Below, in pieces: positions 1 to 8,377 of a stretch of 54,885 bases of DNA. The stretch covers positions 1-54,885 of the forward strand of contig NZ_JADGFC010000006.1 in NCBI RefSeq assembly GCF_016744025.1, read 5' to 3'. The position numbers and the translations under genes were made by a program. The notes below the pieces were generated by a model, which saw only the letters and a list, made by a program, of their open reading frames with translations, ran no database searches and was not told the origin of the DNA. The stretch comes from Sulfurimonas sp. Lineage in GTDB: Bacteria; Campylobacterota; Campylobacteria; Campylobacterales; Sulfurimonadaceae. How positions within the stretch are numbered: the stretch's first letter is position 1; each line of letters starts with the position of its first letter.

Positions 1-1403
1 CTTTCCAATAAAACATTTTTTGCATTATTTAAAATATTTAAGATTACTTGTGAGTACTCATTTTTATGCCCTAATATTTTTGAATCTTTTATAATCATAA
101 AGTCTACTTTTATTTCATGATACTTAAGAGATGATTCTATGATAAAAAGAGCCTCTTTACATGCTGTTTCTGTTGAAAACAGTTCTTTTTCACCATGTGG
201 TTTAAAGAAATTTTGAAAGTCATTAATTGTGTTGGACATATATTGAGTAAGTTTATTGGCTTCTTCTACTTTTTCATTTAAATATTTTTTAGAAAAATTA
301 TCAAAATCATATGTCACTTTCATGTTCATAAAAATAGCTGATACCTGAGCTAAAGGTTGTCTCCACTGATGAGCAATATTACCTATCATTTCACCCATAG
401 ATGCAAGCTTAGACTGCTGTATTAGCATCTGTTCTTGGTCTAGTCTTTTATTTATCTCTTCTTGAATTTTATCTTCAAGGTTATCTATCATATTATTGAT
501 CATAACCTTTAACTCATTTAAGGTAGGGCTATCCGTTTCTTTACTCAGCCTATTTCCCATATTTCCACTTTTAATGTTTTCAAGAACTCTTGTAGCATTT
601 TTTATTAAAGCTTCATCTTTTTCAATATTATTTTGTATAGTTTGTACATTGTTATTGATTATCTTTGCCATTTCACTAAATTCATCATTTGATACAAGCT
701 TAATCTTGCTTGCTTTTTCTCTTTTGTTATTAAGATATTCAAAAAATTCTTTTAGTCCATTTTGAACAGTATGAATAGAGCAAATAATATTATTAGTTAC
801 AAGGGAACCTGTTATTATTGAGAATAGCAAAATTAAAAAGAGTGAGGAGAATACCTCGATTTTAATATCTCTTGCCTCTTCAACAGCATTATCATATGCT
901 TCTGTAGATTTATGTAGGGAATCACTTTGTATAGACAACAACTCTTTCATAAGTAAATTAAACTGTTCCCTACTTACTGTCGTTACATTGATATATGCAC
1001 CCTCTTCAAATTCTGAGTTTAGATACTGCATCGTTATACCTATTAAAGATTTATAGCTAATCCACATATTTAAAATTTCTTCATCATTATCAACAAAATC
1101 ATGCAGTTTTGCATTTAACTCATCTACAACTAATCCCAAATCTATTTCGATCGAGTTTCTAATCTTTTTATTTGGAGCCATTACAAGTGACTGACTCAAT
1201 TCCCTTATATGATACAGAGGAGTTATTATCTTTTCTTGCATATTTAACGCAGTTTGAGATTTGCTATGTACTACTTCTAATGTATCTTTATTTTGTTGAC
1301 TGATATCTATTGATTTGTAACTTACAACAATGATTGATGTCAGTAATATAAAAAAAAGAATTCTTAGTTTGAATTTTATATTTAATCTATTAATTATTTT
1401 CAT
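1..1403 (-). CDS. Sensor histidine kinase (partial, C-terminus off the window): TM, periplasmic helical region, HAMP-like region, HisKA with SMGEMIGNIAHQWRQPL
   Basis: Reverse-strand reading from ATG at 1403 (MKIINRLNIKFKLRILFFILLTSIIVVSYKS...) is open to position 1 and contains the H-box 'GNIAHQWRQPLAQVSAIFMN'. Confidence 0.85.
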   Translation of the reverse strand, partial: MKIINRLNIKFKLRILFFILLTSIIVVSYKSIDISQQNKDTLEVVHSKSQTALNMQEKIITPLYHIRELSQSLVMAPNKKIRNSIEIDLGLVVDELNAKLHDFVDNDEEILNMWISYKSLIGITMQYLNSEFEEGAYINVTTVSREQFNLLMKELLSIQSDSLHKSTEAYDNAVEEARDIKIEVFSSLFLILLFSIITGSLVTNNIICSIHTVQNGLKEFFEYLNNKREKASKIKLVSNDEFSEMAKIINNNVQTIQNNIEKDEALIKNATRVLENIKSGNMGNRLSKETDSPTLNELKVMINNMIDNLEDKIQEEINKRLDQEQMLIQQSKLASMGEMIGNIAHQWRQPLAQVSAIFMNMKVTYDFDNFSKKYLNEKVEEANKLTQYMSNTINDFQNFFKPHGEKELFSTETACKEALFIIESSLKYHEIKVDFMIIKDSKILGHKNEYSQVILNILNNAKNVLLE

Positions 1404-3045
1404 TTTCTATTCTTTGTGCTTTAATAGGTGCATGTAAGTCCTTTGGATAAGGTTTTTCACCTCGTATTGACCAATGATCTTTTGTAATTTGAATATTCCA
1501 AAGAGGAATAATTGCACCCTTATATGGTTTAAATACGACTTCTTTATTTACTGCTATAACTTTGTTTGGTGAAGGAACTCTCAGTGTGTATGCCTTATCT
1601 CTTGCTCTGTAAAGGATTTTAGAAACTATCTTTTCATATTTTTTTGTACCTATCTTAGTTTCAAAAAAGGTATTGATATATTTAGACATTAAATCATCTT
1701 TACCTATAGTTGACCAAGCACTATCATTTTCATAAATAAAAAATACTGTCCATGGATTTGCATAGTACCAATCATCATCACCCCATATAAGAAGATCCCA
1801 TTCCTTGGTATTTTTAGATTTATTAGTCGTTAAAAGTTGAGCATATATGTCTTTTTCACTATTGGTTATAGTGTAGTTTAGTGTAACTCCATACTCTCTT
1901 AGCTGGTATTCTATTCCCTTCCATAAAAACATAAAACGATCTTGAGTGAAAACATTTAATTGAAGTCCACTAAGCAGTTCAATCATTTTATCTTTTGAAA
2001 ATTTACTATCATTTACTTCACAGTTCTCTAATACTTTTTTAACTATCTTATAGTTAACCGATGTAGCAAAAGGAGAAAAAAATCCTTCATTTTTATAAAC
2101 AAAATTCAGTAGATTTTCTTGATTAATTGCTTGGTTTAGGGCAACTCTTAATTCTGTATTTCTTAATTTTTTATTTCCATTAATAAGATTGAAAAAAACT
2201 ATAAAATTATTAGTAGATTCACTAATAATAAGCTTTGCATATTTTGATCTTAAAACTTCAATTTTTTTGTTAAATGGTATCGGTACAATATCTAGTTTAC
2301 CTTCTTCTTGGGTAATCATTTTGATTGCTTCATTTGTATTTAGCTGTGTATATACTGTAACTCTTTTTATTTTTGGAAAATCTGCATTCCAGTAGTAAGG
2401 ATTAGCCTCAAGTTCAAGTTTAGAGGTTTGTTTTTCACCCAAAGCAAAACCTTGAGCAAGGATATAAGGTCCCATGCCAAAAGGTCCTGGAGCTTGTATG
2501 GCAGAACCTGTTTCTGCTCCTTTGAAACCATATGTATCTAAATATTTTTTAGAGTAAAAGTATATCCTTGCTAAGTCTGAAAAAAACATCTCATACTTTT
2601 GCTTTAGGAGTATTTTAAATCTATGTTTGTCTAGCTTAATAACATCAAAATCAATATTATCTATATTTGTATAAAGTATAGGAGATTTTTTAAAATAGTC
2701 TAAATTTTCTACTACAGAATCTGTATCAAAGTCAGTTCCATCTTGAAACTTCAAACCTTCTCTAAGCTCAAACTCATAAGTATAATCATCAACTCTTGTA
2801 TGAGTTTTGGCAAGATCATAAACCCAACCTTTATTATTATCGGATGAACGTATAAGTCCAGCATTTGTATTTTTTGCAATATATGAATAGGGAATACTTG
2901 GAAGAAATATATTTATATGAGATTTTGGATGAAGTTTTTCGACAACTCTTTGGGAAGAAGAATCATCGATAAACTTTAAGGGCTTTATTACTACGGCGTT
3001 CAAGTTATCAAGTAATAAAATAAAAAATAAAAAATATTTAAACAA
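1390..3045 (-). CDS. Periplasmic solute-binding protein, family 5 (peptide/nickel type), probably a sensory accessory protein
   Basis: Signal peptide; SBP_bac_5-like text (YTYEFELREGLKFQDGTDFDTDSVVENLDYF...); overlaps the histidine kinase and RR ORFs; no permease genes nearby. Confidence 0.8.
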   Translation of the reverse strand: MFKYFLFFILLLDNLNAVVIKPLKFIDDSSSQRVVEKLHPKSHINIFLPSIPYSYIAKNTNAGLIRSSDNNKGWVYDLAKTHTRVDDYTYEFELREGLKFQDGTDFDTDSVVENLDYFKKSPILYTNIDNIDFDVIKLDKHRFKILLKQKYEMFFSDLARIYFYSKKYLDTYGFKGAETGSAIQAPGPFGMGPYILAQGFALGEKQTSKLELEANPYYWNADFPKIKRVTVYTQLNTNEAIKMITQEEGKLDIVPIPFNKKIEVLRSKYAKLIISESTNNFIVFFNLINGNKKLRNTELRVALNQAINQENLLNFVYKNEGFFSPFATSVNYKIVKKVLENCEVNDSKFSKDKMIELLSGLQLNVFTQDRFMFLWKGIEYQLREYGVTLNYTITNSEKDIYAQLLTTNKSKNTKEWDLLIWGDDDWYYANPWTVFFIYENDSAWSTIGKDDLMSKYINTFFETKIGTKKYEKIVSKILYRARDKAYTLRVPSPNKVIAVNKEVVFKPYKGAIIPLWNIQITKDHWSIRGEKPYPKDLHAPIKAQRIENENN

Positions 3046-3724
3046 GTCGATATCCTACTCCAGAAAGATTAAAAATTATATCAGTAGGTATTTTCTTTCT
3101 AAGGTTTCTCACTAAGGAACGCAATGCACTGTCTGTCATCACATCATCTCCCCAGACATACTCTTGTAACTCTTCATAGGTAACTATTCTATTTTGATTT
3201 GAAATCAATACTTCAAAAAAACACATCTCTTTTTTGTTTAGAATAATATGATTTTCTTTATAAAGTAATTCTTTTTTATCATAGTCGTAAATATAATCTT
3301 TATCAACTTTTAAAACTTCTATCATATTAACATCTATTAAAGCGACGCATTTTTCCAAGGTGTTTAAAAGATCTTCTAAAATAAGAGGTTTTACTATGTA
3401 CTTTTCCATATGCAACTCGACTGCATCTAGAAGGTACTCTTTATCTGTATGAGCAGTTATCATAACAACAGGAACTTTTTTATTTTCTGCTCTTACTTTT
3501 TTAATAAACTCTATCCCATTTAGAATAGGCATATGTATATCACTTAAAATGATATCTGGTTTTTTATCTTTATATATCTCAAAAGCTTCTTGCCCATTTG
3601 AAGCTTGATAAACCTCTTTGGCATAGTAACCCAAAGAGTCTGCAATATTTTTTCTTATACCTATTTCATCTTCAGCATAAAGAATACTCAAATTTTGAAG
3701 TCTTATAATAAATTCATTTTGCAT
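3038..3724 (-). CDS. OmpR-family response regulator (REC + winged helix)
   Basis: LYAEDEIGIRKNIADSL...DIILSDIHMPILNGIEF...VKPL; C-terminal wHTH 'YEELQEYVWGDDVMTDSALRSLVRNLRKKIP'. Confidence 0.92.
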   Translation of the reverse strand: MQNEFIIRLQNLSILYAEDEIGIRKNIADSLGYYAKEVYQASNGQEAFEIYKDKKPDIILSDIHMPILNGIEFIKKVRAENKKVPVVMITAHTDKEYLLDAVELHMEKYIVKPLILEDLLNTLEKCVALIDVNMIEVLKVDKDYIYDYDKKELLYKENHIILNKKEMCFFEVLISNQNRIVTYEELQEYVWGDDVMTDSALRSLVRNLRKKIPTDIIFNLSGVGYRLV

Positions 3725-3760
3725 AAGATACTCCTATATATTAATTGTACTATTTTGTCT

Positions 3761-4321
3761 TTAATGTTTGGCTTTAACTAAACCATTTAAAGCATTTGAC
3801 TTAATATATCTAAGTAAATATTCTGATTCTTCTGCATCTATTTTAGCAAAACCCTTCATAGGCTCAAATAATGCTTCCCACTCTAACATACTGTGATGTG
3901 GAACTTGTGGAGCGGCATGACATACAGAACACATATCGAAGTAAAATTCTTCTTGTTCTTCCCATACCTCACTACTTGTTGCAGTTAAAGAATCTGTTTG
4001 CATTGAACCACTTAATTCTATTTCATTGTCACTTTTTGTACTTACCTTAAAGCCTTCATCTAAAGTAGCAATCAAAAGTTCTTTATTTTTAGTAGAATAT
4101 AGTTTTGAGCCAAAAAGAAAACCTTTTAGCACAACTTGTGTATTTTCACCTTTTTCTTTGAGAACCTTAACCGGTACACCTAAAAAAAGTTTAGCAACTT
4201 TGCCATCCTTTGATTTTAGAGATGTATCACTTAGCAGTACATACTTTTCACTAGCACTTACTTGGACAAAAAGTCCAAGTAAAAGCAGTGAGAAGACTGA
4301 AGTTTTTAGCCACTTACTCAT
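3761..4321 (-). CDS. Monohaem c-type cytochrome partner of the TorA-like reductase (SH3-like N-terminal part, one CxxCH)
   Basis: Signal peptide, single haem motif CSVCH, directly downstream of the reductase; resembles the Campylobacter Cj0265-type arrangement. Confidence 0.75.
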   Translation of the reverse strand: MSKWLKTSVFSLLLLGLFVQVSASEKYVLLSDTSLKSKDGKVAKLFLGVPVKVLKEKGENTQVVLKGFLFGSKLYSTKNKELLIATLDEGFKVSTKSDNEIELSGSMQTDSLTATSSEVWEEQEEFYFDMCSVCHAAPQVPHHSMLEWEALFEPMKGFAKIDAEESEYLLRYIKSNALNGLVKAKH

Positions 4322-4322
4322 C

Positions 4323-6731
4323 TTAAGCTCCTAATATTTTTGGTGCGCTGTATGCCAAGTTTGGTTTAACTACACCTGCTTTTCTTATAGAAACTAAAAC
4401 TGTGTTTGCAGTTGTTGCTTGTGCCATTTGAGATGTAGGACGTGATGAAGTAAGTAAATTCGCTTGACCACTATTACATCTAGTTTTATTTTCTGTAGCG
4501 TCTTCAGGAGAATACCAAGCACCCTCTTCTATAGCAACAACACCATCTCTAATTGTTTTAGTTACAACAACACCTGCTAAAACAGCTCCTCTATCATTAT
4601 AAACTTCTACTATCTCGCCATCTTTTACACCAAATTTCTTAGCATCATTTGGAGAGATTCTAATTGGTTCTCTACCTTGAACCTTATGTAGGTTTTGTAC
4701 CCAAGTATTATCTAACTGAGAGTGAACTCTGTATGTTGGATGCGGAGAAACTAAGTGTAATGGATACTTTTTAGTTAACTCTTCATTTCCTAACCACTCT
4801 GCTGGTTCCATCCACATTGGGTGACCTTTAAAGTCGTCATATCCAAAACTAGCAAACTTATCAGAGAAGATTTGAATCTTTCCAGTTTCTGTTTTTAAAG
4901 GATTTTTAACTGGGTCATTTCTAAATGCTGAGTGTCTTACATACTTTCTAGCACTATCAGGCACATCATATTTAACAACACCTTTAGCCCAAAACTCTTT
5001 AAAAGAAATCTTCATTGTTTTCTTCGCATAACTTCTAGCATATAGTTTTTCTATCCACTGTAATGTAGTTCTGCCCTTAGTAAAGTTTTTCTCTTTACCA
5101 AATCTTTTTGATAGTTGTGCAAAAATCCAATAATCATCTTTTGATTCATATCTTGCATCTATAACTTTTTTCATTGCAAACACTCTATCATTTGAGTAAG
5201 ACATACCAGATGTAATATCATCTCTTTCCATAGTTGTTGTAGCTGGTAAGATAATATCAGACATTTTTGCAGTTGGAGTCCACCAAGGATCAACTGTAAT
5301 AACTGTATCAAGTGTTCTCATTGCGCCAACTAACTCATTAATATCTGGTTGATGACTAACAGGTGAAGCACCAGCACTTAGCATAACTTCAACCTTAGGA
5401 TAAGTAACCTTACCACCTTTAAATGTAACTGTTTTACCAGGATTTAAAATTAAATCACTCATTCTAGATGCTGGGATATTGATATTTACTTTATTACCAC
5501 CACCTTGACTCATACCACCAACAGTAGTTTTACCAGATGCTGCGTCTCCACCACCTGCATAATGCATAGAAAAACCGAAACCTCCACCAGGAAGACCAAT
5601 TTGTCCTATCATAGATGCTAGTGTAATAATAGACCAGTCTACTTGCTCACCGTGATGTGCTCTTTGCATAGCCCAGTTACCAGCGATGAATGTTCTGTTT
5701 GAAACCATAGTATCAGCTAATTCTCTAATAGTACTAGCAGAGATTTCTGTTAATTTTGCAGCCCACTCAGGAGTTTTTGCTACGCCATCTTCTTTACCTA
5801 ATAGGTATGGTAAAAATTTGTCAAAACCATGCGTATATTTTTTAATAAATGCAGAATCATATTTTTTAGATGTATATAGATAGTTCATCATACCCATCAT
5901 TAAAGCAACATCTGTATTTGGTCTAATTTTAATCCAATCAGCTCCGAATTCTTGTGCAGATTTTGTATAAATAGGATCAATAGAAATAAATTTGATTCCT
6001 GCTTTTTTATACTCTTCATATGCATCTATATTTCTATGATTTGGAACAGCCCAACCAATTCTATTTGTTTTATAAAGGTCAGTTCCCCATAAAATCATCA
6101 CCTTAGTATTTGCTATGATTTGTTCATGTGCAGTTTGAATAGAATAAACTTCCATATCTCCTACAATTACAGGATTAGTTGGACCAGCAGCACCATTTGA
6201 GTACTCACCAGAAGTACCAACAGCACCACCAATTTGATTTAAGAATCTACCAGCCATTGCATTTGGTTTAAATGCACCAGGATGAGCCCAACCAGAATAA
6301 CAAGAGTTATAAATAGCCTTGTTTCCATTTTTCTTTTGTGCTTTTTTAATAGCTTTAGTTGCTAAATCTAAGGCAGTATCCCAAGAAACTCTAACAAATT
6401 CTTCTTTACCTCTTAAGTCGCCTCTATCTTTACCCTCTAAATAACTTTTTCTAACACAAGGATACTTAACTCTAGAGTCAGTCATAACTCTATCAGTGAT
6501 ACCTTTCATCATAGCAGTTGGGTTAGCATCTGAATCCAATTGAGGAGTAATATCTACAATTTTTCCTTCTCTAACATGTGCGAAAAATGGACCAAAATGT
6601 GAAGCATGTGGAATCTTCACTGTTCTAACTGCAAACTCTTTTGCCATAGCACCACTCATCGTTCCACTACCTATAACAGCCGCTGCACCTACAGCACTTG
6701 TTTTTAAAAAACCTCTTCTTGAAGTATCCAT
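4323..6731 (-). CDS. torA: Tat-exported molybdopterin TMAO/DMSO/BSO-type reductase; the ORF extends to 6839 but the likely start is ATG at 6731
   Basis: MDTSRRGFLKTSAVGAAAVIGSG Tat signal; molybdopterin oxidoreductase motifs (MILWGTDLYKTNRIGW, VTVDPWWTPTAKMSDIILPATTTMERDDI). Confidence 0.85.
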   Translation of the reverse strand: MDTSRRGFLKTSAVGAAAVIGSGTMSGAMAKEFAVRTVKIPHASHFGPFFAHVREGKIVDITPQLDSDANPTAMMKGITDRVMTDSRVKYPCVRKSYLEGKDRGDLRGKEEFVRVSWDTALDLATKAIKKAQKKNGNKAIYNSCYSGWAHPGAFKPNAMAGRFLNQIGGAVGTSGEYSNGAAGPTNPVIVGDMEVYSIQTAHEQIIANTKVMILWGTDLYKTNRIGWAVPNHRNIDAYEEYKKAGIKFISIDPIYTKSAQEFGADWIKIRPNTDVALMMGMMNYLYTSKKYDSAFIKKYTHGFDKFLPYLLGKEDGVAKTPEWAAKLTEISASTIRELADTMVSNRTFIAGNWAMQRAHHGEQVDWSIITLASMIGQIGLPGGGFGFSMHYAGGGDAASGKTTVGGMSQGGGNKVNINIPASRMSDLILNPGKTVTFKGGKVTYPKVEVMLSAGASPVSHQPDINELVGAMRTLDTVITVDPWWTPTAKMSDIILPATTTMERDDITSGMSYSNDRVFAMKKVIDARYESKDDYWIFAQLSKRFGKEKNFTKGRTTLQWIEKLYARSYAKKTMKISFKEFWAKGVVKYDVPDSARKYVRHSAFRNDPVKNPLKTETGKIQIFSDKFASFGYDDFKGHPMWMEPAEWLGNEELTKKYPLHLVSPHPTYRVHSQLDNTWVQNLHKVQGREPIRISPNDAKKFGVKDGEIVEVYNDRGAVLAGVVVTKTIRDGVVAIEEGAWYSPEDATENKTRCNSGQANLLTSSRPTSQMAQATTANTVLVSIRKAGVVKPNLAYSAPKILGA

Positions 6732-6771
6732 ATTATCATTCCTTGCTATTAATTTTAAAAATACTAACAAG

Positions 6772-6793
6772 AATAAGTAGCAAATAAGTCGAA
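6772..6793 (-). promoter_or_regulatory. Candidate response-regulator operator upstream of the torA-like gene
   Basis: Minus strand reads TTCGACTTATTTGCTACTTATT, identical to the copy at 6910-6931; internal ACTTATT repeated at 11-bp spacing. Confidence 0.6.
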
Positions 6794-6909
6794 TAACTAA
6801 TCTTCTTGTACTTCTGCATAAATTAATCAATAGAAGCATTTTTACATACTATATATATGAGATTAATCATCTAAGCAAATGTAAACAAATTGTCTATATA
6901 TTTTAATCT

Positions 6910-6931
6910 TTCGACTTATTTGCTACTTATT
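6910..6931 (+). promoter_or_regulatory. Candidate response-regulator operator upstream of the porin gene
   Basis: TTCGACTTATTTGCTACTTATT, perfect inverted copy of 6772-6793. Confidence 0.6.
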
Positions 6932-7010
6932 TTTTATAATCTTTGAGCATGAAACAAAGACTAATAAGCTTTTGTTAGTTTAAAGTTCAATTTTAAAAGA
7001 GGATGAGATT

Positions 7011-8213
7011 ATGAAAAGTACAAAACTAAGTTTAGTAGCTACTATAGCTATTATGGGAATGTTTTCTGGGGTAAATGCAAATGAGTTTGATGAGGCATTT
7101 ACAAAAGGTACCCTTACTGGAGATGCAACTGTCACATATGAGACAAGAGATCAAAAAGACGACGATAAAGGTGCATATTATACTGATGAAGCATATTCAG
7201 TTGCTTCTGCTGAGTTAATTTACAAGACTGCTAAATTTTATGACTTCTCACTTACTTATGGTATGAGAGGATATAAAGTACTTTGGGAAGATGATGCTAA
7301 CAGTGCACCTGCTAACGGTACTGGTGATGCAAGTTCAAGATTTTATAATATTGATGGTGGAGATACTGCACAAATAAGCAATGCTTACCTTGCATATAAT
7401 ACAAAGATTATTGATGCGAAATTTGGTCGTCAAAAAATATCTGGTGATTGGATAAATAAAACTCACGATGCTGTTAATATCACAGTAAATCCAATGGAAA
7501 AACTTGCAGTTGGGCTTATTTGGACAAATACTAAAGATATGAGAGTATTAGCAAGAGATTTACGTGCTTTAAACAATGATATCAACGGAAATGATGGTAT
7601 TTATAAGCTTGATGTAACTTATAAAATAATGGATTCTCTAAAAGCAACAGCTTATGCTCTACATGCTCCAACTAGCCACTCAGTATATGGTGGTAAAGTT
7701 ATGTTAGATTCAAAAGCAAATGATGTTAGCTTCGGTGGTTTTGCTCACTATATGCAGACAGACGAAATTGCTAAGAATACAGATGGTTCAGCTAAAGACG
7801 ATGGTTCTATGTACTACGCAAAAGCTTACGTAGGATACTCAGGAGTAACAGCAGCATTAGGATATATCAAAACAGGTAAAGATGCTGGTTGGGCTTCTGC
7901 TAATGCAGCTGGTGAGACTATCGATCCATTCGAAGAAGGTGATGCCCTATTTTATGTTGACGCTGCTACTACATATGCAACACTTTCAACAACTCTAGCT
8001 GGAGTAAGCTTAAGTGGTATTTACGGTATGTCAGAATATAGTGCTTCTAAAGGTTCAGATACATTAAAAGAAAATGAATTTTGTTTATGGGCTGGTTATG
8101 ACTTAACTAAACAGTTAAACCTAAGTGCAATCGTAACTCTTTTATCAGTAGATGATGATGCTCCTAATAGTGACATGACTCAATTAAGTTCAACACTAAC
8201 TTACAAGTTTTAA
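7011..8213 (+). CDS. Outer-membrane porin (Opr/OprD-like beta barrel)
   Basis: Signal peptide (MKSTKLSLVATIAIMGMFSGVNA), alternating beta-strand pattern, aromatic C-terminus ending TLTYKF. Confidence 0.8.
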   Translation: MKSTKLSLVATIAIMGMFSGVNANEFDEAFTKGTLTGDATVTYETRDQKDDDKGAYYTDEAYSVASAELIYKTAKFYDFSLTYGMRGYKVLWEDDANSAPANGTGDASSRFYNIDGGDTAQISNAYLAYNTKIIDAKFGRQKISGDWINKTHDAVNITVNPMEKLAVGLIWTNTKDMRVLARDLRALNNDINGNDGIYKLDVTYKIMDSLKATAYALHAPTSHSVYGGKVMLDSKANDVSFGGFAHYMQTDEIAKNTDGSAKDDGSMYYAKAYVGYSGVTAALGYIKTGKDAGWASANAAGETIDPFEEGDALFYVDAATTYATLSTTLAGVSLSGIYGMSEYSASKGSDTLKENEFCLWAGYDLTKQLNLSAIVTLLSVDDDAPNSDMTQLSSTLTYKF

Positions 8214-8264: not shown

Positions 8265-8377
8265 AGACTATATATAGATACGGTTTAAGAGACAGAGCAA
8301 ACAAAACAATTTTTTACACTCATTCTTTCTCCTGAAATTGATAATTTTTTTGCTTAAACCGTATCTCTATATAGTCT
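8265..8377. repeat. 113-bp element bounded by 25-bp inverted repeats (one mismatch)
   Basis: AGACTATATATAGATACGGTTTAAG (8265-8289) versus CTTAAACCGTATCTCTATATAGTCT (8353-8377). Confidence 0.85.

Follow-up and report, generated by a model that had tools for sequence, protein, structure and literature searches.

The DNA stretch analysed here (hereafter the window; 54,885 nt of Sulfurimonas sp., starting at base 1 of contig C79) carries the same 22-bp sequence, TTCGACTTATTTGCTACTTATT, before a reductase gene and, in mirror orientation, before a divergent porin gene. This raises the question of whether the two copies are operators of the response regulator (RR) encoded in the reductase operon, and whether enzyme and porin are controlled together. 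The features discussed below are listed in Table 1.

Table 1. Features of the window: operators, predicted promoter elements and surrounding genes
Feature	Position	Strand	Remarks
Sensor histidine kinase (HK)	3..1403	-	3' end cut by contig end; weak HisKA
Family-5 periplasmic solute-binding protein (SBP), proposed signal receptor	1390..3045	-	SBP_bac_5, E 1.7e-32; gene order conserved
OmpR/PhoB-family RR, proposed binder of both operators	3038..3724	-	Response_reg + Trans_reg_C; box co-occurrence; recognition helix comparison
Small c-type cytochrome, TorB-like	3761..4321	-	Matches TorC C-terminal part (TorC profile positions 227-379)
Molybdenum S/N-oxide reductase, TorA/BisC group, Tat signal	4323..6731	-	Start 6731, not longer ORF start 6839
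Predicted torA operon +1, A	6754	-	Alignment column 39; inference
Predicted torA operon -10, TAGTAT	6761..6766	-	Register of conserved TANAMT (alignment columns 27-32); inference
Operator copy 1, torA side	6772..6793	-	Half-sites TTCGACTTATT (6783-6793) and TGCTACTTATT (6772-6782); aligned with 32 orthologous promoters
Operator copy 2, porin side	6910..6931	+	Identical 22-mer; relatives' porin promoters have the same box
Porin -10 candidates	6935..6942	+	TAATCT 6937-6942 (conserved register) or TATAAT 6935-6940 (better hexamer, 2 bases nearer the box)
Opr-family outer-membrane porin, divergent from torA	7011..8213	+	NCBIfam opr_proin_2, 389.6 bits versus cut-off 150

The minus-strand gene order torA, cytochrome, RR, SBP, HK was also found in Arcobacteraceae and in Sulfurimonas-labelled records. 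The reductase scored below the cut-offs of the TorA NCBIfam equivalogs (777.6 versus 909 and 743.4 versus 1465 bits), so that TMAO is a candidate substrate only, and also below that of the BisC subfamily model (998.9 versus 1017.55 bits). Both RR domains, PF00072 and PF00486, exceeded their gathering scores, and the full-length HK orthologue exhibited HisKA and HATPase_c. The window torA was 83-86% identical to Arcobacteraceae copies and, among the members of the genus listed, a close RR orthologue was found only in this genome and in G239; the locus at 3-6731 may have arrived by horizontal transfer. The same genome encodes a second TorA-type reductase of about 45% identity (L165:3293-8864, contig C180), with its own cytochrome, a different RR/HK pair, and no box of the type described below. 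Just 3' of the porin gene, at 8265-8377, we observed a 25-bp inverted repeat (arms 96% complementary, 63 nt between them), which possibly forms a large hairpin; each arm occurred once in the genome, so this is not a dispersed element.

The initial annotation had described the 22-mers as identical and mirrored, about 40 bp before the reductase ATG and about 80 bp before the porin ATG. Both copies were indeed exact, lying 41 bp from the torA start and about 80 bp from the porin start, 116 bp apart from each other. Their flanks did not align beyond the box, identity ending at the edges of the 22-mer, and a search allowing up to three mismatches returned only these two sites in the window (0.01 expected from shuffles). 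The same annotation had read each copy as ACTTATT repeated around a TGCT spacer. The tandem with an 11-bp period was retained, but the spacer was not: in relatives the repeat unit is an 11-mer, whose G/C-containing 5' bases are part of the conserved core, and the family consensus from the relatives' alignment is TTCGAYTTTTT-TKCKMYTTTTT.

Scans of the own genome (2.9 Mb assembly) were pattern searches only. Searched without mismatches, the 18-bp core ACTTATTNNNNACTTATT occurred twice in the 2,925,274 bases, at the two operator copies. With mismatches it performed no better than chance (nine matches at one mismatch, the same as the reversed-control count), and on its own this short core is uninformative. 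A degenerate 21-mer with three mismatches gave 37 matches, versus 56 for its reversed control. Looser patterns drown in the A/T-rich background, and functional evidence must therefore come from comparison. A single near match turned up in the own genome, at C220:5257-5277; it lies antisense where one ORF ends, with a recombinase-like gene alongside, and we did not accept it as a target.

For this comparison, we collected the promoters of torA orthologues sharing at least 50% identity, 59 distinct sequences in all, and scored them with a 22-bp matrix by leave-one-out, a box being called at a score above 9. Such a box was present in 32 of the 33 promoters linked to an RR gene, versus 1 of the 26 unlinked ones. 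One RR-linked promoter (L119) showed a degenerate box at best, and the sole unlinked box (L177) preceded a second torA copy in G187, a genome in which the RR is located elsewhere. The same contrast was observed within a single genome, G232, where the RR-linked torA (L036) had a box and the unlinked torA (L178) had none. The 11-mer tandem was often perfect, consisting of TTCGATTTTTT twice, GCCTCTTTTTT twice, or CTGACTTTTTT twice. In L032 (5811-5832) and L033 (5808-5829), a mirrored second box was observed 5' of torA on the minus strand. The 350 bp downstream of this box yielded no ORF; its target may have disappeared, be a short gene, or lie at a greater distance.

When the RR-linked torA promoters were aligned, the box was followed after 5 bp by TANAMT, with an A seven bases past this -10 element, in 32 promoters out of 33. 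If the conserved A is taken as +1, the half-sites are predicted to span -39 to -29 and -28 to -18. A downstream -10 candidate (alignment columns 38-43), partly kept in Arcobacteraceae and missing in GCCTC-type promoters, was not preferred. We found several features of an OmpR/PhoB-type operator: head-to-tail half-sites of about 11 bp in the window and 32 relatives, a fixed distance to the -10, and an RR with a receiver and a Trans_reg_C domain.

From this promoter geometry we infer activation rather than repression. The same RR could instead bind the boxes to repress torA and the porin until the signal relieves repression, and the overlap of the box with the promoter (the -35/spacer region), where repressors also bind, is compatible with such a role. 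We nevertheless regard repression as unlikely: the torA promoters had no conserved -35 of their own beyond the box, a geometry that fits an activator replacing the -35, as in the definition of the PHO box (PMC4415409), and sites of the regulator PceP that lie over the -35 were judged activating by its authors (PMC7755780).

To whom the box belongs is suggested by its distribution. The relatedness of genomes inflates formal P values, and comparisons within genomes and within families therefore matter. Among 104 Arcobacteraceae genomes, an exact box was found in 24 of the 26 with an RR orthologue, versus 3 of the 78 without. The two RR-bearing genomes lacking an exact box were G431, with a box at one mismatch, and G226, whose torA is cut by a contig end; one of the three RR-less genomes with an exact box, G446 (locus L032), has its RR gene cut by a contig end. 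Moreover, GCCTC-type boxes were paired with the recognition helices MSDDALKSLVRNIRHK or close variants, and TTCGA types with MTDSALRSLVRNLRKK, a comparison that involves few clades and carries supporting weight only. Taken together, genome co-occurrence, promoter linkage and the helix shift point to the linked RR as the likely binder of the box. That another DNA-binding protein uses the box, with incidental linkage to the RR, might be proposed from the many OmpR-family paralogues per genome and from the three exact matches in RR-less genomes. We consider this slightly less probable still than repression, since box and RR are found together at the level of individual genomes, the box is lost at torA copies without the RR but persists where the RR cassette joins a different enzyme, and the recognition helix shifts with the box type.

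That different enzyme was found in Sulfurospirillum-type genomes, in which the RR-SBP-HK cassette lies behind an operon encoding a TorD/DmsD-like chaperone, a 758-aa molybdoenzyme and an Fe-S subunit. In 44 Sulfurospirillaceae genomes, KKCGATTTTTTTGCTCTTTTTT at one mismatch gave 26 matches, all of which were checked: 14 were located before the TorD-molybdoenzyme operon and 12 before an Opr-type porin, versus no match for the reversed sequence in the same genomes. In L103 (6050-9903), the cassette with the same box type accompanies an operon encoding the chaperone, the 758-aa molybdoenzyme with an Fe4S4 domain, a DmsB-like Fe-S subunit, and a 122-aa protein without a family; the gene order was the same in L102, L104-L110, L121, L124 and L125, and divergent in L101. 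A small cytochrome c gene with its own box was observed downstream of the kinase in two of these loci (L102:1104-1464 and L103:14081-14441). A paralogous set, with an RR 46-49% identical, an HK, a cytochrome and a TorA of about 41%, was observed in L171 (2028-9132), where the SBP was also found, and in L172 (5088-10637). Both carried CCCAC/GCCAT-type boxes before the cytochrome gene, and the cassette family is thus wider than its close orthologues.

The porin was assessed with a matrix trained solely on torA promoters and scanned over 1.1 Mb of loci. This matrix found a box before all 13 TorD-molybdoenzyme operons and before 15 of the 21 porin genes, versus 7 of 440 unrelated ORFs, one of which (L168) is by sequence a truncated Opr-type porin. 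Some of the six porins without a box in the sampled loci were extra copies or located within an operon (L036, L119). The porin with its own mirrored box was divergent from torA in the window, L016, L019, L096, L098 and L099, and it lay kilobases from torA, again with its own box, in L093, L011, L012 and L025. Enzyme and porin boxes differed by a mean of 2.2 positions within a genome versus 3.7 between genomes, and none of 20,000 permutations was as low. Downstream of most porin boxes lay a -10-like sequence in the torA register. In the window the best porin -10 hexamer, TATAAT, is two bases off this register; it was also picked paired with a first hexamer that falls within the box. On these comparisons, the porin is a member of the predicted box regulon.

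Other genes near torA also had boxes. In L012 (2646-4995, plus strand), a dCache chemoreceptor gene beside torA had a good box 52 bp upstream, which suggests that chemotaxis towards the acceptor may be part of the regulon. A DJ-1/PfpI-family gene near torA had a box about 200 bp upstream in L018 (3865-4787) and L021 (3819-4751).

An origin of the two copies as an inverted repeat from a mobile element, a duplication or a hairpin without regulatory role, to which their exact identity, inverted orientation and 116-bp separation might point, is scarcely credible and was rejected, as identity stops at the box edges, the own genome has no further exact copies, and relatives' boxes are single or kilobases apart, always at promoters.

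The initial annotation had linked the RR encoded at 3038-3724 to both operators, and through them to reductase and porin; this link is now supported, as the box tracks the RR and marks porin promoters, including those unlinked to torA. It had asked for an alignment of the orthologous regions, in which the box was kept at a fixed position of the RR-linked torA promoters, and for the genome-wide distribution of the motif, which was non-random, every Sulfurospirillaceae match lying at the enzyme operon or the porin. A motif that was unconserved and randomly distributed was to count against the proposal, which survived the part of this test that could be computed.

We therefore return to activation by the linked RR, and consider it highly probable that both 22-bp elements are operators through which the operon's own RR activates reductase and porin together. 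In the proposed mechanism, the family-5 SBP would bind a periplasmic compound and thereby activate the membrane kinase, which would phosphorylate the RR. Two RR subunits would then bind head-to-tail on the two 11-bp half-sites, at about -39 to -18, replacing the -35 element and recruiting sigma-70 polymerase as PhoB does. Operator copy 1 would drive the reductase, cytochrome, RR, SBP and HK genes, generating positive feedback, and operator copy 2 the porin, so that reductase and porin would be induced together and the porin would admit the electron acceptor.

In its spacing to the -10, the PHO box agrees with the torA boxes described here. The PHO box is made of two 11-nt direct repeats, each with about seven better-conserved and four A/T-rich bases (PMC4415409). 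Likeness to PhoB and its box extends to the 11-nt head-to-tail repeats, the RR domain make-up, and a box just upstream of the -10; however, the half-site sequence and the signal differ (no phosphate genes here), and the RR reached 93 bits versus a PhoB equivalog cut-off of 296. In E. coli, torCAD is controlled via direct repeats by the TorT-TorS-TorR system of an SBP, a kinase and a regulator (PMC8534201; Simon et al. 1995, cited in PMC10662104). The window shares this layout, with a TorA-type reductase predicted to be controlled through direct repeats, but its SBP belongs to family 5 (SBP_bac_5) and is not TorT-like, its HK orthologues have a plain HisKA-HATPase layout, its RR scored 61.5 bits versus a TorR equivalog cut-off of 275, and a porin is included in the predicted regulon. 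AioX-AioS-AioR likewise comprises a periplasmic SBP, a kinase and a regulator, for arsenite oxidase, and AioR acts at RpoN promoters (PMC5908839); the likeness lies in this trio next to a molybdoenzyme, whereas AioX belongs to another SBP family and the -10 here is of the sigma-70 type.

Within the phylum, PceP is the nearest experimentally tested regulator that we found. This OmpR-family protein of Sulfurospirillum tetrachloroethene respiration was studied by gel shift on direct repeats with 11-nt periodicity over the -35 (PMC7755780). It resembles the present RR as an OmpR-family regulator of a respiratory system with that periodicity, but its operator, CTATW-N17-CTATW, is unrelated and the box does not fit it; moreover, PceS itself carries a periplasmic domain, and the paper mentions no family-5 SBP (PMC7755780). 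In C. jejuni TorA-TorB, the small monohaem cytochrome TorB is equivalent to the TorC C-terminal domain (PMC6195509), and the window cytochrome corresponds to TorB, but the Campylobacter- and Helicobacter-type torA loci sampled had neither a linked RR-SBP-HK set nor a box. Our literature search, a weak guide as it covered few subscription journals, returned no earlier description and no torA regulator named for these groups. What is new is a well-defined regulon; the type of control system is already known.

Overall, the comparisons support well a Campylobacterota regulator family that would pair respiratory molybdoenzymes with an Opr porin, more generally than initially proposed. The chances seem to us evenly balanced that RR, family-5 SBP and HK form a modular acceptor-sensing cassette, attached to different Campylobacterota molybdoenzymes and each time commanding a dedicated Opr porin; if so, inducing anaerobic respiration would routinely include opening a matched outer-membrane pore. 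For periplasmic S/N-oxide respiration in Campylobacterota, the result is a regulon that is defined by sequence and open to testing; its box provides a search handle and has already led to other molybdoenzymes, a chemoreceptor and a cytochrome c. The result also ties respiratory molybdoenzymes to one porin type in several genera and several gene arrangements, and so suggests that entry of the acceptor through the outer membrane belongs to the induced pathway.
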